A stretch of 39,910 nucleotides of DNA from a virus. Below, in pieces: positions 2,943-39,821 of the stretch (positions are counted from its first letter, which is position 1; each line of letters begins with the position of its first letter). The translations under genes were made by a program, and so were the position numbers. The stretch lies in the IMG/VR virus record IMGVR_UViG_3300037264_006287, positions 1 through 39,910 of that record. One strand, given 5' to 3'. The notes beneath the pieces are model-generated. The model saw only the letters and a list, made by a program, of their open reading frames with translations, was not told where the DNA came from and made no database searches.

Positions 2943-3135
2943 CGACACCCGCTGTCAGCACAGCGCTTGCCCCAACCCGGATACCCTGCCGGTGCGGATG
3001 TACGGCGGCGACCCCGGCGACCGGATGTACTACTGCAAAGAGCACGCCGCTAAGAACGGCCTGCTCCATAGGATAGACTGGACTGCGGTACGCGCCCGGA
3101 ACGCCCTGGCCGCAACGGAGGCCGCCCATGACTGA
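2935..3135 (+). CDS. small Cys/His protein, probable zinc-binding
   Basis: A 66-residue protein with CQHSACP (Cys about 7 and 12) and a later YYCKEHA, giving a C-x4-C...C-x2-H pattern that would bind one zinc ion. Phage early regions often carry such treble-clef-like mini-proteins with no known role. Coupled to its neighbours by 8-base overlaps at both ends. Confidence 0.65.
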   Translation: MPNDTRCQHSACPNPDTLPVRMYGGDPGDRMYYCKEHAAKNGLLHRIDWTAVRARNALAATEAAHD

Positions 3136-3832
3136 AACCACGCTCCGCTGCACTATTGACCAATTGCTCTCCTGGCGCCCCTGCTCGAAATGGCCGGAAT
3201 CCCGCATCCGCCAGTACGCCCGCGGTCGCGCGACCTTCACCGCCCTGGACGTGCTGCGGCTGCGCTCCGTATCCGCGGAGCACCGGCTGTGGGTCGTGCT
3301 GCGCGAGGAAATGATTCCCGCGGCCACCCTGCATGAATTTGCCTGCCGCTGCGCGGAGCAGGTACTCCCGCTCTACGAGCGTGAATATCCTGGCGACAGC
3401 CGCCCCCGCGACGCCATCACCGCCAAACGGGCCTGGCTGCGCGGTGAAATCACGGATGCCAAATTAGGCGCCGCCGAGTCCGCCGCCGAGTCCGCCGCCA
3501 GGTCCGCCGCCGAGTCCGCCGCCTGGTCCGCCGCCAGGTCCGCCGCCTGGTCCGCCGCCTGGTTCGCCGCCGAGTCCGCCGCCGAGTCCGCCGCCAGGTC
3601 CGCCGCCGAGTCCGCCGCCTGGTCCGCCGCCTGGTCCGCCGCCTGGTTCGCCGCCGAGTCCGCCGCCGAGTCCGCCGCCAGGTCCGCCGCCGAGTCCGCC
3701 GCCTGGTCCGCCGCCAGGTCCGCCGCCTGGTTCGCCGCCGAGTCCGCCGCCGAGTCCGCCGCCAGGTCCGCCGCCGAGTCCGCGCAGGTACTCCTGCTCA
3801 AGCGCATGCTCCAGGAGTCCGCCCATGACTGA
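3128..3832 (+). CDS. Ser-Ala-Ala-X tetrapeptide repeat protein
   Basis: A 234-residue protein in two parts. Residues 1 to about 114 form a globular domain (LLSWRPCSKWPESRIRQYARG, EHRLWVVLREEMIP, HEFACRCAEQVLPLYE). From about 115 to 220 the sequence is a strict SAAX repeat with X = Glu, Arg or Trp and an occasional Phe for Ser. The repeat is ordered in about 3.5 longer blocks of 28-32 residues. A short tail VLLLKRMLQESAHD closes it. A four-residue period suits a long helix with charged/aromatic residues winding slowly round it. It shares the start MTETTL with the next gene. Function unknown; an interaction or spacer rod is a guess. Confidence 0.75.
   Translation: MTETTLRCTIDQLLSWRPCSKWPESRIRQYARGRATFTALDVLRLRSVSAEHRLWVVLREEMIPAATLHEFACRCAEQVLPLYEREYPGDSRPRDAITAKRAWLRGEITDAKLGAAESAAESAARSAAESAAWSAARSAAWSAAWFAAESAAESAARSAAESAAWSAAWSAAWFAAESAAESAARSAAESAAWSAARSAAWFAAESAAESAARSAAESAQVLLLKRMLQESAHD
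3470..3786 (+). repeat. 12-base tandem repeat inside the SAAX gene
   Basis: About 26 units of a 12-base pattern of the form TCCGCCGCC followed by GAG, AGG or TGG. The units are arranged in 3.5 longer copies of 84-96 bases. Expansion by slippage is likely. The repeat keeps all six frames open, which explains the long reverse-strand frames here. Confidence 0.95.
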
Positions 3833-15183: not shown

Positions 15184-15909
15184 ATGAGCGACCGTCGTCC
15201 TCTTTTACTCGATCTCTTCTGCGGTGCCGGTGGCGCGGCTGTCGGTTACGCCCGCGCCGGGTTTGACGTGGTGGGCGTGGACAACGTGCCGCAGCCGCGC
15301 TACCCGTTCCCTTTTATCCAGGCTGACGCGTTGGAGTATTGCGCGGCGCACGGGAGTGAGTACGACGTGATTCATGCCTCGCCGCCGTGCCAGCGGTATA
15401 GTAGCATGGGCCGGGCCACTGGCACAAATGGCAATCATCCTGATTATATCGCCATAACCAGAACGCTACTACGGGAATCTGGCCGGCTGTGGGTGATTGA
15501 GAATGTAGTGGGCGCGCCCCTATCCTGTCCCATCACGCTCTGTGGGGCCATGTTTGGATTGCGTGTCTATCGTCATCGGTTATTCGAGGCCAGTGTCATG
15601 CTCCTACAGCCACCCCGTCCCCGCCATATCCTCCGTGCCGCCCACGCCGGCAAAATCCCTGTCCCCGGTGAGTTTTGGTCGCCAGCGGGGTGCTTTGGGC
15701 AAAAGGATGACGCACAGCGGGCAATGGGCATTGACTGGATGGAAACGACCGGGGCGCGTTCCATCGAAATTGCCCAGTCCATCCCCCCGGCCTATACCGA
15801 ATTTGTCGGAAAGCAGTTACTATCCGCCCTGACCGCCTGGCGGGCAAAGGTCGGGGGGGTGGATGTCGTTACAGCCCCTGTCCTGACAGCAGAAACACCG
15901 CGAGGATGA
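15184..15909 (+). CDS. DNA (cytosine-5) methyltransferase
   Basis: A 241-residue C5-methyltransferase-type protein. Motif I DLFCGAGGAAVGYARAGF binds S-adenosylmethionine; VVGVDNVPQPRYP is motif II; motif IV ASPPCQRYS carries the catalytic Cys; VIENV is motif VI. A conserved end, RSIEIAQSIPPAYTEFVGKQLL, holds the IPP-Y motif X. At 241 residues the target-recognition part is very short compared with bacterial enzymes (over 300), as is usual for phage solitary enzymes. It would mark phage or host DNA, for protection from restriction or for regulation. No partner restriction gene is visible. TTGACT occurs upstream but without a clear -10 box. Confidence 0.9.
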   Translation: MSDRRPLLLDLFCGAGGAAVGYARAGFDVVGVDNVPQPRYPFPFIQADALEYCAAHGSEYDVIHASPPCQRYSSMGRATGTNGNHPDYIAITRTLLRESGRLWVIENVVGAPLSCPITLCGAMFGLRVYRHRLFEASVMLLQPPRPRHILRAAHAGKIPVPGEFWSPAGCFGQKDDAQRAMGIDWMETTGARSIEIAQSIPPAYTEFVGKQLLSALTAWRAKVGGVDVVTAPVLTAETPRG

Positions 15910-19704: not shown

Positions 19705-20679
19705 CTACGCAGTCAACTGCACGCCCACCTCGACCGCATCCAGTTCGCCTTGCGTCCAGGCCAGGCCGGTCTGCGGATTCAGGCTGTAGTACACCCCTTT
19801 ATGTTCGGTATAGGCCGTGCCCAGCGTCTTTTTGGCCGACCAGAAATCGGTCCCCTCCGTCCGCACCCCCAGTAGTAGCCCGTCCGCCCCGGCGCTTTCC
19901 GCCCGCGCGGTAGCTTTAGTCCAGACCACCGCAATGACGTGGTTGGCGGGGATAGTCAGGGTGGCCATGGCATACTGGTCGTAGTTGGTGTCCACGGCGC
20001 CGGAAACGTAGGTGGTATCCCCATCGTTGGGCACCTCGTCGACCAAGGTATAGTTGTCCACCGCGGCCGACGGCGTGAGGTCCGTATGACTGCCGATGCC
20101 ATCGGGCAGCAGTAGCACGATGTGCCCGTCGCCGGGCCACGAATTCTGTTCCGCCCCGGTGGGATCGTTGACGGCGATGTCGTCAAAAAAGGTCGTGGTC
20201 CCGCCGGTAGTCTCTAAGCGTAAAAAATAGCAGGAAGTGTACGTCAAGGCGGCCGCCACACTGACCCAGGCGTCCCCGTCCACCCGGACGCTGATGGTGG
20301 AGCCCACGCTGTTGTAATAAACCTCCAGGACATACCACGTATTGTACGCCCAGGTATTCGTGGACGAGGCGACGACCGCCGAGGCCGAGTTGATAATTCG
20401 GACGACCGGGGTGGCGTTATCGAAGAAAATGCCAAAACACTGGTGCGCGGCGTTATCGCGGAACCTGACATAAGCCCCGCCCGAAGCGACGCGCAAACAG
20501 ACCCGCGCGTAGAACTCGGTGTAGCCGGCCTCCAGATTAAGATCCGCCGAGATCCCGACCAGGGACAGGGCGTAGGTCCCACTGCGCACCGTGCCCGCCG
20601 AAAACGTCGGCGTGCCGGACGAGGCCGCAATGCAGAGCAAACTGGCGAACTCAAAACCCTCACTATAGACCCGGGCCAT
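19705..20679 (-). CDS. lectin-fold virion protein
   Basis: A 324-residue protein starting MARVYSEGFEF. The pattern GTYALSL, YTEFYARVCLRVASGG, VRFRDNAAHQCFGIFFDN, TWYVLEVYYNSVGSTISVRVDGD and FFDDIAVND follows the strand order of concanavalin-like/LamG jelly rolls seen in many phage minor structural proteins. The C-terminal third (LTPSAAVDNYTLVDEVPNDGDTTYV, ATLTIPANHVIAVVWTKA, GVYYSLNPQTGLAWTQGELDAVEVGV) is typical of appended virion adhesion modules. AGGAGG sets the start at 20679. Probably binds host surface glycans. Confidence 0.7.
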   Translation of the reverse strand: MARVYSEGFEFASLLCIAASSGTPTFSAGTVRSGTYALSLVGISADLNLEAGYTEFYARVCLRVASGGAYVRFRDNAAHQCFGIFFDNATPVVRIINSASAVVASSTNTWAYNTWYVLEVYYNSVGSTISVRVDGDAWVSVAAALTYTSCYFLRLETTGGTTTFFDDIAVNDPTGAEQNSWPGDGHIVLLLPDGIGSHTDLTPSAAVDNYTLVDEVPNDGDTTYVSGAVDTNYDQYAMATLTIPANHVIAVVWTKATARAESAGADGLLLGVRTEGTDFWSAKKTLGTAYTEHKGVYYSLNPQTGLAWTQGELDAVEVGVQLTA

Positions 20680-20693
20680 TAGAACCTCCTGCG

Positions 20694-21485
20694 TCACGCC
20701 GCCATATTACATAGGTCGGCCGTCGAGCCGAAAATGTAGGAATAGTACAACCACACCGCCGTGCCGTCATCCGGCACGTAGACGCCGTAAGCCAAGGCCC
20801 CGGTCCGCGTGGCGGTCAGGCGGCAATGGTAGGTGTAAATCCGGGCCGCCACGGCCCCAGGGGCGGCCGCCAGGGCGGCCAGTTGCCCGCCCGCTACGGC
20901 CATCGTGCAGTCCACACGGACGTGGTCCAGATAAAAATCGCCGGCGGCCGGGCCCGTAAGGGCGGCGCTGGTGCTCCCGGCGGCCAACTCGACATATTGC
21001 ACGGTAAAATTATGCAGGGCGCAGGCGGCGCCGAGCACTTGCCCCACCAGAATACAGGCTAACCAATCCAGCCCGACAACGTGCACGCCATCCGCCAGCA
21101 CCAGATCCTCGGTATAGGTGCCGGGACAGACCAGCACTACCCACGGGGTCGCCGGCCCCGCCCCGCCGGCCACCGCCGCATTGATTGCGGCCTGAATGCT
21201 GGCGTATTCCGCATTCGCGGTGGCGACGAGCAGGAGGCGGGCCGGGTCCCAGGCCAGGGTAGCGTTGCCCCCGGCGCCGCCATCGGTTAGTACCAAGTTG
21301 TTCCCGGCCGTCAGGATGCGCTCATCTGTCAATATGCCGCTCAGGGCCATGACCACGTATGGGGCATCGGCCGGGGCGGCCCCGCCCGCTCCGCCGACGC
21401 TGATCTGCTCGATCGTCTCCAGATGAGCGAGCCGCCGGCGCGAATCCGCCAACTCCCGTAATAGTTGTGCGGCGAAATCGTCCAC
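20694..21485 (-). CDS. beta-helix tail spike-like protein
   Basis: A 263-residue protein starting at GTG 21485 with GGGAGG upstream. After a coiled helix (DDFAAQLLRELADSRRRLAHLETIEQI) comes a right-handed beta-helix signature: EYASIQAAINAAVAGG, WVVLVCPGTYTEDLVLADGVHVVGLD, then YLDHVRVDC and ARIYTYHCRLTATR. The YxSIQAAIN...PGTY...V.L..GV pattern is shared by pectate-lyase-like spikes. No catalytic residues can be named. The open frame upstream of the start overlaps the next gene and is shadow. Confidence 0.7.
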   Translation of the reverse strand: MDDFAAQLLRELADSRRRLAHLETIEQISVGGAGGAAPADAPYVVMALSGILTDERILTAGNNLVLTDGGAGGNATLAWDPARLLLVATANAEYASIQAAINAAVAGGAGPATPWVVLVCPGTYTEDLVLADGVHVVGLDWLACILVGQVLGAACALHNFTVQYVELAAGSTSAALTGPAAGDFYLDHVRVDCTMAVAGGQLAALAAAPGAVAARIYTYHCRLTATRTGALAYGVYVPDDGTAVWLYYSYIFGSTADLCNMAA

Positions 21486-29357: not shown

Positions 29358-29951
29358 TTAGCCTCGATAACGATCCAGGATTTCTTTCTCGCTCAGCAGG
29401 AGCAAGCGCGCGGCGCTGGCCCCCATGGTGCCCTCACTGGACCCGCTCGGCTGATAGGTGACCGAATAATCGCCCAGGCTCTTGCCGGCGATCCCGGGCA
29501 CGCCCAGGCTGTCCGCGGCGAGCAGCCCGGCCTGGTACGCCCGCGCGGCCGCGCGCGTGCACACGGCGACGATGTCGTCCGGGATGACGGCATAGCCGTG
29601 GGCGTAGGTCACGGTGACCATCTGGATACCCTCGGCCCATGGTTGGTCCACCCGATAGAGGATACCCCACTGGCCCAGCTTGTAGTCGTCGGTGACGACC
29701 AGTATCTCGCCGTCCTCGACGACCCCCAAGACGCTGATCACCGGCAGCTCGGGGAGGAAGATTTTGTACCAGGCGGTGGAGACGTCCAACGTGACCACGT
29801 CGCCGGTGACCAGGTAGAGCGTCTGGTGGCAATAGTTCTGGATCGCGGCCGTGGCCTCGGCGAGCGCCCGCAGCGCCGCGGCGGTCTTCGCGGCGGGAAT
29901 GGCGAGCTGCAGGAAGCTTTCGAGGTCGGCGATCGTCGCGAATGTAGTCAT
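29358..29951 (-). CDS. head-tail connector protein
   Basis: A 197-residue protein. The helical start ATIADLESFLQLAIPAAKTAAALRALAEATAAIQNYC is typical of gp6/gp15-like connectors. Strand-rich middle parts (LYLVTGDVVTLDVSTAWYKIFLPELPVISVLGV, GILYRVDQPWAEGIQMVTVTYAHGYAVIP) and the helix DDIVAVCTRAAARAYQAGL complete the fold. It docks on the portal. GGAGTAGACC lies before the start. Confidence 0.8.
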   Translation of the reverse strand: MTTFATIADLESFLQLAIPAAKTAAALRALAEATAAIQNYCHQTLYLVTGDVVTLDVSTAWYKIFLPELPVISVLGVVEDGEILVVTDDYKLGQWGILYRVDQPWAEGIQMVTVTYAHGYAVIPDDIVAVCTRAAARAYQAGLLAADSLGVPGIAGKSLGDYSVTYQPSGSSEGTMGASAARLLLLSEKEILDRYRG

Positions 29952-29954
29952 GGT

Positions 29955-30182
29955 CTACTCCTGGCGCGATTTGTCCGCGGCCTTCCGGCGCGCCTTGTTC
30001 GGCGCCGGCGGCTGGGCTTTCTCTGCCGGCAACAGCCCCCGCGCCCGCGCGTCCGCCTCGCGCATGCGGACGTAGACGCCGGGGCGAATCTGAATCCTGA
30101 CCAGCGGCCCGCCGGTTGGTGCTACGGGCCAGGTCTGGGGATCGCCGATGATGCCCACCAGGTCTGCTGTTGGTTCGTTCAT
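29955..30182 (-). CDS. hypothetical protein with a LVRIQIRPGVYVR motif
   Basis: A 75-residue protein starting at ATG 30182 (overlap with the previous stop). The segment LVRIQIRPGVYVRMREADARARG matches the C-terminal part of the preceding gene (LVKVEISPGRFVKCRPGDEE), so the two share a beta-hairpin module. The basic, helical end is KARRKAADKSRQE. Possibly a head accessory protein. Confidence 0.6.
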   Translation of the reverse strand: MNEPTADLVGIIGDPQTWPVAPTGGPLVRIQIRPGVYVRMREADARARGLLPAEKAQPPAPNKARRKAADKSRQE

Positions 30183-30823
30183 CGTTGCTGCTCCATGCGC
30201 CGATTCATAAGATGCTGATAGTGGCGCTTTGTCTTTTCTTCGTCCCCCGGCCGGCACTTGACGAACCGGCCCGGCGAGATCTCCACTTTGACCAGGATCT
30301 GGGGCAGCGAGATCATCACGCTGCGCTGGGTCCGGGCGTCCGCTTGCGCCCGCTGCTGCTCGTCGGCCAGCCAGGAGCGCGGCAGGGCGCAGAAACGCGG
30401 CTTGACCAGGTGCAGGGCATGCAGGAAGGCCAGCCGTTCATCCCAGCCCGGGCGGCAGGCTTTGCGCCAATAGGCCACCAGGTCCTGGCCGGCCGCGTTG
30501 TTCCGCACAAAGAGCAGCCCGGGTTCATAGGTGAGCAGCCGCAGGTCCAGCGTGGCCGCCTGGGTATGGGCGCGCTGCTCTTTCGTCCCCAGATCCTGGG
30601 CCAGGACCCCGTAACGCCACAGCGGGGCGGCCGCGTCCCAGCGCTCCAGGAAGTGGAAGCCGTATTCCAGCATCTCCCACGGCACACAGACGCCGGGAGC
30701 GATGAAAAGCACCTTGTCCCAGGGCAGGGGATAATCCGGCGCCACGGCCAGTTCCAGCTTGAGCTTGCGGGCCATGCTGGCCGCCTTGGGATTGTCCTTT
30801 TTCAGGATGATGCCAGCACTCAT
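30179..30823 (-). CDS. hypothetical protein, 214 residues, with the same terminal motif
   Basis: Starts MSAGIILKKDNPKAASMARKLKLELAVAPDYPLPWDKVLFIAPGVCVP. The middle part (LERWDAAAPLWRYGVLAQDLGTKEQRAH, LLTYEPGLLFVRNNAAGQDLVAYWRK) looks like an alpha/beta enzyme or binding domain but I recognise no family. The C-terminal region repeats the LVKVEISPGRFVK motif seen next door. It adjoins the methyltransferase and sugar genes by 4-base overlaps, so it may belong to that cassette. The frame upstream of ATG 30823 is shadow of the methyltransferase gene. Confidence 0.6.
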   Translation of the reverse strand: MSAGIILKKDNPKAASMARKLKLELAVAPDYPLPWDKVLFIAPGVCVPWEMLEYGFHFLERWDAAAPLWRYGVLAQDLGTKEQRAHTQAATLDLRLLTYEPGLLFVRNNAAGQDLVAYWRKACRPGWDERLAFLHALHLVKPRFCALPRSWLADEQQRAQADARTQRSVMISLPQILVKVEISPGRFVKCRPGDEEKTKRHYQHLMNRRMEQQR

Positions 30824-31272
30824 TTTCGCACCCGCAGTCTGGCGGCAAACGACGTTTTGCCGCGATTCGGCTTCGCCGCTTGGATGATGTGCCACTTGTA
30901 GGGCGTGTAGAACATGTACTGGTTCCCGAACTTGGTGTCGGGGTCGAACACATCTAGAGATAATAGCGAAAAGCGCCAGTAGTGGGTCGGGTCTACGTAC
31001 GAACCATCGGCCGCCCAGTGGGGCAGCTTCAGGTGCAGGATGCCCCCCGGTCGCAGCAGCCGCCAGCACTCATTGACCGACGCGAGCAGATCGATCCGCA
31101 GATGCTCCAGCACCGCGCAGGCGACAATGAAATCAAAGCTCTCGTCCACCCACGGCCAGGGGAGCACGTTCAGGTCGTGCACGACGTCCACCTCGGGGCG
31201 ATGCTTTACCCGATCGTGTTGCACGGCCCCCGGCACGAGCTTGTTGCCGCAACCGAGATTGAGGATATCCAC
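30820..31272 (-). CDS. class I SAM-dependent methyltransferase
   Basis: A 150-residue protein. MDILNLGCGNKLVPGAVQHD is the glycine-rich SAM-binding motif I, VVHDLNVLPWPWVDESFDFIVACAVLEHL holds motifs II-IV of the UbiE/Coq5-like group, and LLASVNECWRLLRPGGILHLKLPHW completes the core. The C-terminal part is short. GTG 31272 overlaps the stop of the acyltransferase gene. The closest known type acts on small molecules or sugars; here a sugar or virion protein is a plausible target, by inference. Confidence 0.8.
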   Translation of the reverse strand: MDILNLGCGNKLVPGAVQHDRVKHRPEVDVVHDLNVLPWPWVDESFDFIVACAVLEHLRIDLLASVNECWRLLRPGGILHLKLPHWAADGSYVDPTHYWRFSLLSLDVFDPDTKFGNQYMFYTPYKWHIIQAAKPNRGKTSFAARLRVRK

Positions 31273-31709
31273 TATTCCAGCCTCCGCGCGTAGCCTGACT
31301 TGACCACCGGCAGATAATGCCAGTCGCCATCTTGCCAGCGGGCGATCACGCGGGCCGGGTTACCCGCCACCATGACCAGGGGCGCCACGTCCTGGCCCCG
31401 CACGACGGTGCCGGCAGCGACGACGGCGCCAATTCCGATGTGGCAGCCGGACAGGAGGGCCTGCGAACCGATCCAGGCCTGCTCATCGACCGTAACTCCA
31501 TAGGGGATGACTGGACCCAGCGCCGGCCACTGGCTGAGGTCATGGGACTCCGTAAAAACCTGGACCATGTACCCCCAGCGGCTGGTGGCGCTGATCGTCA
31601 GCGGACCCCGACAATCCAGGAAGATGCCCCGGCGGGCAAAGTAGTCCCACGGTAAGCCCACGGTGGCGGGCAGGTCGCGGATTTTGCCGGCAAACGCGCC
31701 CAGGTTCAT
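31272..31709 (-). CDS. hexapeptide-repeat acyltransferase
   Basis: A 145-residue protein. After an N-terminal part (NLGAFAGKIRDLPATVGLPWDYFARR) comes the left-handed beta-helix pattern of O-acetyltransferases: GVTVDEQAWIGSQALLSGCHIGIGAVVAAGTVVRGQDVAPLVMVAGNPARVIARW. The AGNPARVI ending is diagnostic of the maltose/galactoside acetyltransferase group. It would transfer an acetyl group to a sugar. It overlaps the glycosyltransferase gene by 4 bases, so the two are translated together. GGAGG lies 5 bases before ATG 31709. Confidence 0.85.
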   Translation of the reverse strand: MNLGAFAGKIRDLPATVGLPWDYFARRGIFLDCRGPLTISATSRWGYMVQVFTESHDLSQWPALGPVIPYGVTVDEQAWIGSQALLSGCHIGIGAVVAAGTVVRGQDVAPLVMVAGNPARVIARWQDGDWHYLPVVKSGYARRLE

Positions 31710-33430
31710 CGCTGCCTCCGCCCATGTTCCTGCTCGTGTCTTTTGACCATCGCCCACGCCTCCGGCGCGTCGATGCGCCCGGGGACCAGGCCATCCCAGC
31801 GCCGGGCGTCGCCCGGGTAGTGCCGCAGGCCGGCCGTGGTGACGCCCTTGGAATATTTGTCGAAAGTATTCCACTCGTTGCCCAGGGTCAGCACCCGGAG
31901 CGGGTCGCGGTACATGGCCCGCACCAGCGCCCCCTGGTCCCGCTGCGCATGGACCTCCCACTCGGCCTGCCAGCGCTGAAAGAAAGACGCCACCCGGGGA
32001 TTCCGGGCAAAGGCCCACACGCCACCGTTCCACTGCAGCGTGTGGAGGGTGTGGACCTCGCGCTGCATATCGAAAAGCTCCTTCTTGTTATTGCGCCGCT
32101 CGAAGGCATGCAGCGTGTCCATCAGGTGGGGGTCCTTGGTGATGACAAGCTCCCAACCGGCCTCGATCCACTCGAAAAACTGGTAAATCGGGGCGACGAC
32201 CTCCGTGTCGGCGTCGAGGTACAGCACCGCCGCCCACTCGGCGGGAGCGAGTTCATACGCTTTCAGTTTCGCCCGCCGCCCACCGATGTCGCTGTCCGGC
32301 TGCTGAACAAACACGTCCTCCGGGCCGATTTTGGCGGCGGCGCAGAGGCAGATGGGGATGTCGGGCATGTGCTGCTTAATGCTGGTCAGCAGGCGAGCCG
32401 CACATTTGCGGGAGGGTTCGCCGAACGCGACCACGTAGATCCCCCGTTTTGATTTCGTATTGGCTGGCATCGGCTCATGGACCTCGATCGTTGGCACCGC
32501 CGCCGGCGCCGTCTCTTGTTCCGCCATACCGGCATCCAGCTCCGGGTGTTCGCGCGCGAACAGTGTCGCAAACACCTGGCGGTGGGCCTCGACGAACGCG
32601 CCCACGGTGTGGCCGGCGACGGCGGCCCGCAGCGCCGCGCGATCGATCTGCGCGGCCGGGAAAGCTGCCTGCTCCAGCGCCTGCAGGAGCGTTTTCACGT
32701 CACCCCGCTGGTAGCGGTAGATCCCCGGGGTGTCCGGGAGCTCGTCCAGGAGGCCCACGCCCCGGGGCACCACGACGCGCACCCCGCAGGCCAGGGCCTC
32801 GAGGACCGGCAGGGGTCCGCCCTCAACGCGGCTGGGACAGACCAGGACGTCCAGCCCCTGATAGAAGGAGGGCAGCTGGGCCCAGGCATAGCGTTTGGTG
32901 GGCACCGGCCAGCCCCGGCCGGAAGCGACCCACTCCACGCGTTGGCCGATTGGCGCAGCCAGGAGGCCCTGGACCAGGTCCTCGCCCTTGCGATGATTCG
33001 CGTAGGTGTACCCGGAGAAACCCACCACCGGCCGGCGGGGCGTGGCGCGCTTGCTGATGGTAAAGCGGTCCTGCTCCACCGGCAGGGGCGGTTGGATCGT
33101 GGGGCCGTAGCGCCCCAGCGGTTCGGCATAGAGCCGGCACATGGCCACGCGGAGGGAGACCCGCCGGGCGACGTCGTCGAAGAGCTTGGCCTTGGCGTTC
33201 CCCGGCGGCTCCTCCTCGCGGTGGGTGAAATAGGAAACGATCGGTACGTCCGGCCACTGCTTGGGCAAAAGTTGCGCCTCGAAGTAGCCCATCAGGTAGA
33301 TCAGGTCGGCGGTGGGAGCAGGCGCGGCGGTCAACGTCCCGCCGAGCTGCTCCGCTAGATAGCGGGCGAAGCGCGGTAGAACGCGATCTTCTTTATAGTT
33401 GCGGCAGACGACGTTGATCGCCAACGCCAT
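31706..33430 (-). CDS. two-domain glycosyltransferase (GT-B + GT-A)
   Basis: A 574-residue protein. Residues 1 to about 310 form a GT4-type GT-B domain: VGFSGYTYANHRKGEDLV, LPSFYQGLDVLVCPSRVEGGPLPVLEALACGVRVVV, with the Glu-x7-Glu type nucleotide-sugar motif EGGPLPVLEA. A linker of about 30 residues (ETAPAAVPTIEVHEPMP) follows. Residues about 335-574 form a second domain of GT-A type: GIYVVAFGEPSRKCAARLL, AVLYLDADTEVVAP with a DxD metal site, NGGVWAFARN and DQGALVRAM. Two sugar transfers by one protein are likely. GGAGGTGG stands before the start. It lies directly after the capsid gene. Confidence 0.85.
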   Translation of the reverse strand: MALAINVVCRNYKEDRVLPRFARYLAEQLGGTLTAAPAPTADLIYLMGYFEAQLLPKQWPDVPIVSYFTHREEEPPGNAKAKLFDDVARRVSLRVAMCRLYAEPLGRYGPTIQPPLPVEQDRFTISKRATPRRPVVGFSGYTYANHRKGEDLVQGLLAAPIGQRVEWVASGRGWPVPTKRYAWAQLPSFYQGLDVLVCPSRVEGGPLPVLEALACGVRVVVPRGVGLLDELPDTPGIYRYQRGDVKTLLQALEQAAFPAAQIDRAALRAAVAGHTVGAFVEAHRQVFATLFAREHPELDAGMAEQETAPAAVPTIEVHEPMPANTKSKRGIYVVAFGEPSRKCAARLLTSIKQHMPDIPICLCAAAKIGPEDVFVQQPDSDIGGRRAKLKAYELAPAEWAAVLYLDADTEVVAPIYQFFEWIEAGWELVITKDPHLMDTLHAFERRNNKKELFDMQREVHTLHTLQWNGGVWAFARNPRVASFFQRWQAEWEVHAQRDQGALVRAMYRDPLRVLTLGNEWNTFDKYSKGVTTAGLRHYPGDARRWDGLVPGRIDAPEAWAMVKRHEQEHGRRQR

Positions 33431-33444
33431 GCCCCACCTCCGAA

Positions 33445-34707
33445 CTAGCTCAGTTCGACGTTGACAAAGGCCGCGGGCCGGATGATGCCCATCGCGGCGC
33501 GCAGCTCGGCCAGGATCGCCACCAGGTTGCGGATGAACCAGTCCGAGTGGCTATCGGTGACGCTGATCGTGCTCTGCATGCGGTCCCACAGGACCATCTT
33601 GCGCCAGTTGGCCAGCCAGGCCGAACCCGGGGCCTGATGGTAGCTCTGCACAACCGGCACGCCCCACAGCGTGCTCGGGCCAGCACCGAAGGGATCACCC
33701 CGGAAGAACCGTCCCACGAGATCGCGCAGGAGCTCGATGCCCTCCCAGTCCGTGGGGTGGAACAACCAGGCGGTCGGGCGAGTCCGGCCGGTGAGCAGCA
33801 GGGTCGTGATGGCCTGGCGGCAGGTGACGAGCTGATCGGTGTTGAACGCCTGGATGAGGGTGCCGGCCGTGTTGACCAGGCCGGTAAAGTTCTCGCCGAT
33901 GCCATCGCCGTTGAAAAGCTGATTCTCCAGCGAATCGTCGAGATCCTCCCGCAATTCCTGATCGATGATGCCGCGGATCTGTGCGGCATCGGCCAGGGCC
34001 CGCTTGGTGACGCCCGCATAGACGGCGATCGTCTTGACCGGCGCCGAGACCCGCTCCGCGTACCAGCTGGCCTGCGGCTTGGTGCCGGTGATCTCCCCGG
34101 TCGCGCCGGTGGGGTACTTGACGTTGGCCTCGGGGACGGGCGTGGCCTCCGAGAATTGCTTGGTCTGGCGGACGAACTCGACCATATCCGAGGTCGTCTG
34201 CCGGACGGCGATCAGATCCCGCAGGACCAGCGGATAGCGCCCGAGAGGCTCGTAAATCCCCGACTGCTCGGGGGACACGAACACCCCCGCGCTGATGTCG
34301 CTCAGCCCGGTGATCAAGTCCTTGAACTCGATGGCCGGCGAGCTCAGGCCCTTGCGGCTCTCGGGGATGACGCCGTTCGGGGCGATGCCCTTCATCCAGG
34401 ACTGGAATTCGGGCGACGCGACGAACTGCTCGCCGAGCGACTGGCCCCGGCCCGGGGTGTAGCCCCGCTGGTGGCCGGCCGGCCGTTCGGCCAGCTCGAT
34501 CCCGCCGCCCAGCTCGAGCACGGCCGCGCGGAGCGCAGCGTCGCCGGCGGCGGACTTGAGCTGGTCCTTGAGCTTCTGGGCCTCAGCCAGGAGGTTCCCG
34601 ACCTTTTCGCGTTCCTCGGTCGTAAAGTCCCGGCTTTCCTTCTCGGCCTGGTCGCAGATGGCGCGCGCGTCCAGGAGACACTTCTGCATTAGTACTTTCA
34701 GATCCAT
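33445..34707 (-). CDS. major capsid protein (HK97 fold)
   Basis: A 420-residue protein. A helical scaffold-like N-terminus (DLKVLMQKCLLDARAICDQAEKESRDFTTEEREKV, KLKDQLKSAAGD), which the prohead protease probably removes, precedes the HK97 capsid core: GLSDISAGVFVSPEQSGIYEPLGRYPLVLRDLIAVRQTTSDMVEFVRQT, KTIAVYAGVTKRALADAAQIRGIIDQELREDLDDSLENQLFNGDG, LLTGRTRPTAWLFHPTDWEGIELLRD, and the end VAILAELRAAMGIIRPAAFVNVE. ATG 34707 has AGGAGG six bases upstream. Confidence 0.95.
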   Translation of the reverse strand: MDLKVLMQKCLLDARAICDQAEKESRDFTTEEREKVGNLLAEAQKLKDQLKSAAGDAALRAAVLELGGGIELAERPAGHQRGYTPGRGQSLGEQFVASPEFQSWMKGIAPNGVIPESRKGLSSPAIEFKDLITGLSDISAGVFVSPEQSGIYEPLGRYPLVLRDLIAVRQTTSDMVEFVRQTKQFSEATPVPEANVKYPTGATGEITGTKPQASWYAERVSAPVKTIAVYAGVTKRALADAAQIRGIIDQELREDLDDSLENQLFNGDGIGENFTGLVNTAGTLIQAFNTDQLVTCRQAITTLLLTGRTRPTAWLFHPTDWEGIELLRDLVGRFFRGDPFGAGPSTLWGVPVVQSYHQAPGSAWLANWRKMVLWDRMQSTISVTDSHSDWFIRNLVAILAELRAAMGIIRPAAFVNVELS

Positions 34708-34718
34708 GATATTCCTCC

Positions 34719-35300
34719 TCAACTGTCCAAAAGTTCGATGGCGATGTTCGTCTTTACAATATCCCGGCCCGGATTCCTCGACGCGCTGTTGCCAGCCTGG
34801 TCTTGCTCCGGGGCGGGGGAAGAGTTACGGATACAGTTCTGGCACTTGATGTCAGTGGTATGGGTGGCGATGCCGGCGCCGCGCGAGACCGGCCCGACGC
34901 CGATCACGTCCAATTTCTTCAGCAAGCGCACCGGCTGGCCGTTGAACGTCCCGGCCTCGGCCTCTTCGATGTAGAAAGAATAGGACCACTCCTGCAAGTC
35001 GGCCAGTTCCTTGACCACGGTGTAGTGCTCCTGTCCGGCCGGGGTGCTCAGGAAGAATTTCCCGTTGACCAGGGCCTCGTTGCCCGCTTCGCCGATGGTC
35101 CCCTTGCCTACGGGCGGCCGATCCCAGCCGTGATTCCACGGCTCGATCAGCACCCGCTGTTCGCCGAACGCGCCGGGGAGAGTCACGTCCTGATCATGGT
35201 CGATCACGTTCATGGTAGCAAAAACCGCCGAAAACTCGCCTTGCTCGCCCTCGACCTTGATCGCAATCCGCGCGCGGTACGTTTTGATTGCTCGTTCCAT
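34719..35300 (-). CDS. prohead maturation protease (U35/HK97-like)
   Basis: A 193-residue protein. The motif NVIDHDQDVTLPGAFGE, LIEPWNHGWDRPPVGKGT with the catalytic His, and LQEWSYSFYIEEAE with the Ser belong to the HK97 prohead protease family. It cuts the capsid scaffold domain. The last 40 residues (KCQNCIRNSSPAPEQDQAGN) are a variable tail with CxxC. GGGAGG is placed before ATG 35300. Confidence 0.9.
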   Translation of the reverse strand: MERAIKTYRARIAIKVEGEQGEFSAVFATMNVIDHDQDVTLPGAFGEQRVLIEPWNHGWDRPPVGKGTIGEAGNEALVNGKFFLSTPAGQEHYTVVKELADLQEWSYSFYIEEAEAGTFNGQPVRLLKKLDVIGVGPVSRGAGIATHTTDIKCQNCIRNSSPAPEQDQAGNSASRNPGRDIVKTNIAIELLDS

Positions 35301-39165: not shown

Positions 39166-39322
39166 GGAGCACTCCAACAGGTGTTTCTGCGGACGGCTCG
39201 AACTCACTCGCGACAGTCAGGCCTCGCCTCAGAATTTGCAGCGCCAGCCAGATCAGGGCCTCGGCTACGCGGGCGCGCCAGCCGGGAACGTGAATGCGGA
39301 CCTTGATGTCAACGCTATTCAT
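39155..39322 (-). CDS. 55-residue protein between TerS and TerL
   Basis: A frame of 55 codons starting at ATG 39322, inside the last codons of TerS, and ending at TGA 39155, 11 bases into TerL. It reads MNSVDIKVRIHVPGWRARV, then AEALIWLALQILRRGL and a polar end. The strand followed by an amphipathic helix looks protein-like. It fills the whole gap between the two terminase genes with coupled ends, which supports it being a real gene. Function unknown. Confidence 0.6.
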   Translation of the reverse strand: MNSVDIKVRIHVPGWRARVAEALIWLALQILRRGLTVASEFEPSAETPVGVLHGN

Positions 39323-39821
39323 GTGCTACCTCGACCGGCTTCGGGAGCTGCGGCAATCCGCTCACGGCCTCGTTCAACAGCTCCTCGAGCGATTTCTCTT
39401 TCTTGGGCGGAGCCACATGCAAGCGCGAACGGCTGGAGGGAGTCATCCCGAACTCGATCAGGTACTTGCGCATGCCATCCAGCGCGGTGTTGCAGATCCC
39501 CACGAGCGGATTCTGCAGCACGAAACCTTTGTCGGTGGTGATCGTCAGGCTACCGCCCGCGAGTTTCTGCTCGGCCTGGACCCAGCGGGCGTAGAGCTGG
39601 CAGTAGGCAGCGAGGGCGGCCCGATCGGCGACGGTCAGCAAGCCCGCGGCGTACAGCTCCCGGACGATGCGATGCCATTCGCGCTTGGCCACCACGCTGA
39701 GGTGCCGCGGGCAGTAGGGGACGTCGCGGCGGAACTCGGGCTCGCGATCGTTGAGCGGTCGCTTGCCCGGGTTGCCTTCGAGTTTCTTTAGCGCAGTTGG
39801 CTTCGGCTTACGTCCTGCCAT
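39315..39821 (-). CDS. terS: terminase small subunit (P27 family)
   Basis: A 168-residue protein starting MAGRKPKPTALKKLEGNPGKRPLNDREPEF, the classical P27-family opening. CPRHLSVVAKREWHRIVRELYAAGLLTVADRAALAAYCQLYARW is the helical DNA-binding part; LQNPLVGICNTALDGMRKYLIEFGMTPSSRSRL is the conserved C-terminal part. It recognises the packaging site and loads TerL. GGAGG lies before ATG 39821. The HNH gene at the left window end would be the next gene upstream in a circular genome; the gap of 136 bases across the ends holds no gene or promoter that I can see. Confidence 0.95.
   Translation of the reverse strand: MAGRKPKPTALKKLEGNPGKRPLNDREPEFRRDVPYCPRHLSVVAKREWHRIVRELYAAGLLTVADRAALAAYCQLYARWVQAEQKLAGGSLTITTDKGFVLQNPLVGICNTALDGMRKYLIEFGMTPSSRSRLHVAPPKKEKSLEELLNEAVSGLPQLPKPVEVAHE

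Follow-up and report, generated by a model that had tools for sequence, protein, structure and literature searches.

A likely virion-glycosylation cassette with exchangeable cargo in the head operon of an uncultured phage

The DNA analysed here (hereafter the window) is the complete IMG/VR record IMGVR_UViG_3300037264_006287, 39,910 bases long, in which positions 30179-33430 hold a set of overlapping genes between those of the major capsid protein and the head-tail adaptor (connector). We consider it likely that these genes form a cassette dedicated to virion glycosylation, which is part of the head operon in this uncultured phage and occurs in about a hundred of its relatives. The core of the cassette consists of a two-domain glycosyltransferase (GT), an S-adenosylmethionine (SAM) methyltransferase (MT) and a 214-residue protein (X214), with a small head-block protein (S72) attached, while a hexapeptide acyltransferase, also encoded in the window, is rare and exchangeable cargo and not part of the core. 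A preliminary description of the window had proposed a sugar decoration of virion proteins: glycan building and the link to the head are now strongly supported (by the conserved position of the genes, two independent moves beside head genes, fusions between S72 and X214, the lack of membrane-carrier machinery in the window cassette and the sugar-tailoring cargo), whereas the glycan itself is what we infer.

In the proposed mechanism, GT would work in the cytoplasm and build a short core glycan on one of the head proteins, most probably the major capsid protein or some other that is exposed, and MT would methylate this glycan. The genes in the middle of the cassette (an O-acetyltransferase in the window; GT2 glycosyltransferases, sulfotransferases, extra methyltransferases and sugar-nucleotide enzymes in relatives) would fix the final chemistry of the glycan, so that closely related phages could switch coat type. 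X214, apparently the descendant of a GT-A domain that lost its catalytic motifs, probably docks via an S72-like tail where S72 acts during head assembly, and would thereby deliver the enzymes to the acceptor.

Position and conservation of the cassette

Both flanks of the cassette are certain: to the left lies the major capsid protein (33445-34722, minus strand, as are all genes of the head block; Phage_capsid, E 4e-34), a possible acceptor, and to the right the head-tail adaptor (29358-29951; phrog_442, E 5e-33). The four genes which the preliminary description had placed between them are found at exactly these coordinates, namely GT (574 residues, 31706-33430), the acyltransferase (145 residues, 31272-31709), MT (150 residues, 30820-31272, with a GTG start) and X214 (30179-30823), followed by S72 (29955-30182). 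The overlaps of 1-4 bases are also as described, with 4 nucleotides (ATGA) between GT and the acyltransferase, 1 between the acyltransferase and MT and 4 (ATGA) between MT and X214, and a further ATGA overlap of 4 nucleotides between X214 and S72, omitted earlier, adds S72 to the chain; the coupling of the cassette genes is therefore real, and includes S72. The gap of 14 nucleotides between the capsid gene and GT contains a ribosome site (GGAGGTG). The whole head block runs from TerS (39315-39821), its first gene, through TerL, the portal (E 9e-75), the prohead protease, the major capsid protein, the cassette, S72 and the head-tail adaptor to the neck and tail genes. A terminator and promoter scan across the block gave no excess over shuffled sequences, and the coupling and common strand suggest that the cassette would be expressed late, alongside the structural genes.

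When GT, X214 and the capsid protein were used to scan IMG/VR and GTDB genomes, 135 distinct loci were obtained; in a first set of loci, 46 contain both capsid and connector. The order capsid, GT, variable genes, MT, X214, S72, connector is conserved, with GT and X214 in their places in 44 of these 46 loci; among the 44, 37 were found to have MT and 29 a separate S72, with zero violations of the order. Part of the set was fetched by X214, which is hence guaranteed there, and the GT- and capsid-based scans concur. What recurs in relatives is thus this order, and not the one fixed set of four genes previously suggested, since the acyltransferase is swappable. A chance cluster of genes is ruled out, as the arrangement recurs with its order intact in dozens of diverged loci. 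GT was found in every relative with a capsid identity above 50% and sufficient downstream sequence, and it is better conserved than the capsid protein in 51 of 61 comparisons.

The remaining two loci (L029 and L030) are free of the cassette and read capsid, S72, connector. Likewise, the cultured relatives Gordonia phage Tarzan and Arthrobacter phage Abidatro, with capsids about 44-46% identical, have only an S72 homologue at this site, and searches with GT and X214 of 50,697 cultured phage records gave no match. S72 is thus a small, old head-block protein, with homologues between capsid and adaptor in both cassette-free and cultured phages. A family of about 100 residues (LDSETADxIIG...YALGxRRGRE) recurs after S72, between X214/S72 and the connector, in L072, L075, L079, L080, L102, L104, L106, L112 and L116.

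Core enzymes and exchangeable cargo

GT combines a GT4-like GT-B half with a GT8/GT6-like GT-A half. The GT-B half matches Pfam Glycos_transf_1 at 35.4 bits (cut-off 26.4) and keeps the E-x7-E motif (E203, E211) in 102 of 102 sequences. The GT-A half has no match in Pfam at E 1; nevertheless, its model has a GT-A fold, with Z-scores of 15.5-16.5 to glycogenin, GT6 enzymes, WbbM and LARGE1, and its DxD (D406, D408) and RDQ motifs are invariant (98/98 sequences). Glycogenin (GT8) was ranked first by Foldseek, in a fold comparison without a GT8 profile match. As the two halves are separate genes in about 20 relatives, the preliminary description is correct in giving the window a fused GT-B/GT-A enzyme, and fusion is one of two states that occur in the family.

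MT matches Methyltransf_11 at 38.2 bits, above the cut-off of 21.2, and its alignment contains a glycine-rich motif I (NLGxGN), by which it is classed as an ordinary class I SAM enzyme. The acyltransferase stays below the cut-off for Hexapep (17 bits against 27), although its homology to maltose and galactoside O-acetyltransferases is clear (E 1.4e-8 to the latter in the PDB). It is present in only about five relatives, and in L022 (8060-8484) the gene is broken into two frames near residue 100, by decay or by an assembly error, which is compatible with dispensable cargo.

The variable slots yielded 92 open reading frames (ORFs), among which GT2 enzymes (31), Sulfotransfer_3 (20), Methyltransf_24 (15), UDPG_MGDP_dh (UDP-glucose dehydrogenase, 5), epimerases (2) and a DegT aminotransferase (1) were recognised, with a formyltransferase added later. 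By their family assignments, the recognised cargo genes are devoted to sugar and glycan tailoring. This cargo can be wholly exchanged between close relatives: L050 and L051 are 93% identical in the capsid protein, 89% in the GT-A domain and 87% in X214, and yet none of their cargo genes are alike at the threshold used, one having a GT2 and a sulfotransferase and the other a sulfotransferase-like gene, a methyltransferase, two epimerases and one unassigned gene. A similar full exchange separates L043 from L050 (across both pairs, capsid identity is 93% and GT-A identity 88-89%), and such exchange resembles serotype switching.

X214, its S72-like tail and moves between head modules

Searches with the X214 sequence against PDB, Pfam, PHROGs and NCBIfam gave no match, so that the protein could be placed only via fold search and family profiles. 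Its earlier status as a protein without a known family thus stands at the level of direct matches, but structure prediction and profiles now make it a GT-A-derived protein with an S72-like tail. The model of X214 (mean predicted local distance difference test, pLDDT, 89) has a GT-A fold across residues 1-163 (Z 8-9.7), and the 50 fold matches listed are all glycosyl- or nucleotidyltransferases. Alignment to the GT-A domain by hhalign, weak with the small alignments used earlier (probability 13, E 0.002), reached a probability of 61 and E 8e-5 with deeper ones, and a clean hidden Markov model of X214 finds a GT-A domain at E 5e-5, with none among shuffled or reversed controls. An iterated search with drifting members, and a group test on the X214-core tree that compared labelled rows only, were not used as evidence.

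In the register given by hhalign, X214 of the window has APG at the DxD position and ER at the DQ position, and in the columns of the family there is no conserved aspartate at DxD and an arginine at the Q position in 78 of 79 sequences. Since the motifs are lost while D63, D93, R95, R130, R135 and K141 are near-invariant in the same 79 sequences, X214 appears constrained but rebuilt; by these comparisons, X214 and the GT-A domain of GT are paralogues, and X214 has lost both catalytic motifs. An active metal-dependent GT-A enzyme is therefore not what was found. That X214 may instead be an active metal-independent glycosyltransferase like BoGT6a, its tail binding an acceptor peptide and not docking a complex, we regard as rather unlikely: such GT-A enzymes exist, one of them among its fold matches (4ayj), and many of its polar residues are near-invariant, but of the DxD and DQ columns that its paralogue has, it has kept neither. 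In L163:4940-6121 and L166:5305-7212, a methyltransferase-like region lies in one open frame with X214, an apparent further domain fusion.

The final ~40 residues of X214 (LVRVEIxPGRFVKC...; about residues 172-214, positions 30179-30309) are homologous to S72, whose profile matches the tail in many members of the family. The tail is present in all 87 X214 proteins of the main head type with readable ends (recognised by pattern in 82 and by eye in the others), including that of L058, which is among the nearest relatives of the set found in lambda-type heads, and is absent in all four from other head types, whose loci also yielded no S72. Besides, in nine loci of one clade there is no separate S72 and X214 runs on into a complete S72 domain, the fused protein directly abutting the connector gene in eight of them, and a second, separate fusion (L191) joins X214 with the helix-hairpin-helix part of S72. 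The homology of the tail, its distribution and the fusions therefore tie X214 to S72 and to the head type, and make X214 probably a docking adaptor matched to the head type.

The four exceptional loci document transfers of the cassette. In L039 and L163 it sits in a lambda-type head (portal phrog_21, ClpP-like protease, gpD-like decoration protein and capsid phrog_29), in L166 with a portal related to that of these two, and in L036 in a module whose portal is of SPP1 type (phrog_104); in all four it adjoins or nears the portal gene. As the GT tree places L039/L163/L166 and L036 inside the main group at two points, kept apart by well-supported branches, the cassette has, on this phylogeny, entered unrelated head modules on at least two occasions, each time beside head genes. 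An extra protein is encoded between X214 and the portal in L039:13608-14627 and L163:6004-7065, the L039 copy having a DADT (DxD-like) motif.

Taken as one history, which we put forward tentatively and at somewhat below an even chance, a GT-A domain would have been duplicated, lost its chemistry and, by taking up part of a neighbouring head-block protein (in some phages all of it), been remade into an adaptor that docks on the head or into a component of the virion; it would now anchor an exchangeable "serotype" coat locus which passes from one head module to another, unrelated one and alters its docking tail in the process.

Elsewhere, the window encodes a serine recombinase and a Gp3-like directionality factor, from which the phage is probably temperate. 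Its plus strand also encodes a putative Imm-5-like immunity domain in the early region (3128-3832; PF21805, E 1e-14), a DUF5131 protein (8802-9665; E 3e-58) and a short C5-cytosine DNA methylase-like protein (15184-15909).

Alternative targets and relation to known systems

Several points weigh against a virion-glycosylation cassette with X214 as its adaptor. The virion glycan is deduced from genes, and the model of GT is modest overall (mean pLDDT 69). The absence of the tail outside the main head type goes back to just two independent events and, X214 being the last gene of the cassette, a recombination junction could trim the tail without functional meaning; the part of S72 in head assembly is itself putative, as is docking via the tail. 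Finally, four cassettes (the L034 cluster) carry a GT2 resembling, as judged by eye, polyprenyl-phosphate-sugar synthases, which would allow for a lipid-linked step.

The acceptor might also be a tail or fibre protein, or a head fibre from a second variable slot, in place of the capsid shell, which we consider unlikely. Ser/Thr/Ala-rich virion- or fibre-like proteins (some of them phrog_3758, phrog_240 or phrog_19041), which are possible glycan acceptors, do adjoin the cassette in this second slot in several relatives (L018:11348-14510, L040:13595-16266, L070:5371-7646, L090:6796-10658, L098:8916-10355 and L163:7256-10161), and the large one in L040 is related to a tail-region protein of the window (19705-20697). 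However, most cassettes, that of the window included, have no such neighbour, for which reason these proteins were set aside as a general acceptor, and the connection with S72 and the head genes speaks for the head.

The two alternatives already named in the preliminary description, glycans of the host surface and phage DNA, fit worse than a virion target. It is quite improbable that the cassette serves to alter the surface glycans of the host cell while the phage infects or persists as a lysogen, for instance to block superinfection. The probably temperate phage, the likeness of the cargo to O-antigen loci and the four cassettes with a synthase-like GT2 speak for such a role, but in the window cassette no flippase, polymerase, membrane glycosyltransferase or lipid-carrier genes were seen. 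GT and X214 have no strongly hydrophobic segment (maximum hydropathy over 19 residues of 1.44 and 1.23), MT and the acyltransferase (1.68 and 1.84) are small soluble-type enzymes, and 112 of 117 cargo ORFs lie under the hydropathy threshold. Moreover, the cassette stays with late head genes, both its moves led to head modules and not to lysogeny regions, and X214 shares its tail with a head-block protein. The addition of sugars to phage DNA bases, known from the DNA-glucosylating glycosyltransferases of other phages, is most improbable here, because no base-precursor enzymes (hydroxymethylase, TET/JBP) were seen among the ~40 window proteins scanned (small ORFs being partly covered and the record possibly a fragment) and neither cargo such as sulfotransferases, UDP-glucose dehydrogenase and formyltransferase nor the tie to head genes agrees with it.

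To our knowledge, there are very few phages for which virion glycosylation has been demonstrated. According to PMC11256854, which cites Freeman et al. 2023, mycobacteriophages Che8 and Rita carry glycans on the major capsid protein that shield the virion against antibodies, and the related F1 phage Maravista has glycosyltransferase genes near the 3' end of its genome; mycobacteriophage virion glycosylation is also reported in PMC12691614. The mycobacteriophages likewise use phage-encoded glycosyltransferases, whereas here the set of GT, MT and X214, known from its genes, lies inside the head operon with swappable cargo. In chlorovirus PBCV-1, a virus-encoded GT-A enzyme (A64R) acts on the major capsid protein, and its structures (2p72, 2p6w) are the top fold matches of X214; this is a likeness of fold only, at 6-7% identity, to an enzyme of an unrelated virus, and X214 has no DxD. 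Bacterial O-antigen and capsule loci are likewise conserved at both ends and hypervariable in between, where they hold GT2 enzymes, acetyl-, sulfo- and methyltransferases and enzymes of sugar-nucleotide metabolism, but the window cassette has no lipid carrier, flippase or polymerase genes and is anchored to phage head genes. The Gtr O-antigen conversion cassettes of temperate phages are phage-borne glycosyltransferase genes as well; their GtrA is a membrane flippase and their GtrB is membrane-bound, and they lie near attachment sites, whereas neither a flippase-like gene nor a membrane-bound glycosyltransferase was seen in the window cassette.

Virion glycosylation is therefore known in kind, and what is new is its form: an exchangeable glycan locus embedded among the head genes, in which a glycosyltransferase has been repurposed and linked to a head-block protein. 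The locus is widespread, and its genetic signature is clear enough to recognise it by: the ends are fixed and the middle switches, much as in bacterial serotype loci. It makes X214 a candidate for targeting a modification machine to the assembling head. A phage coat bearing sulfate or formyl groups would be chemically unexpected, and why phages coat themselves becomes a question that can be tested on phages differing in nothing but their cargo.

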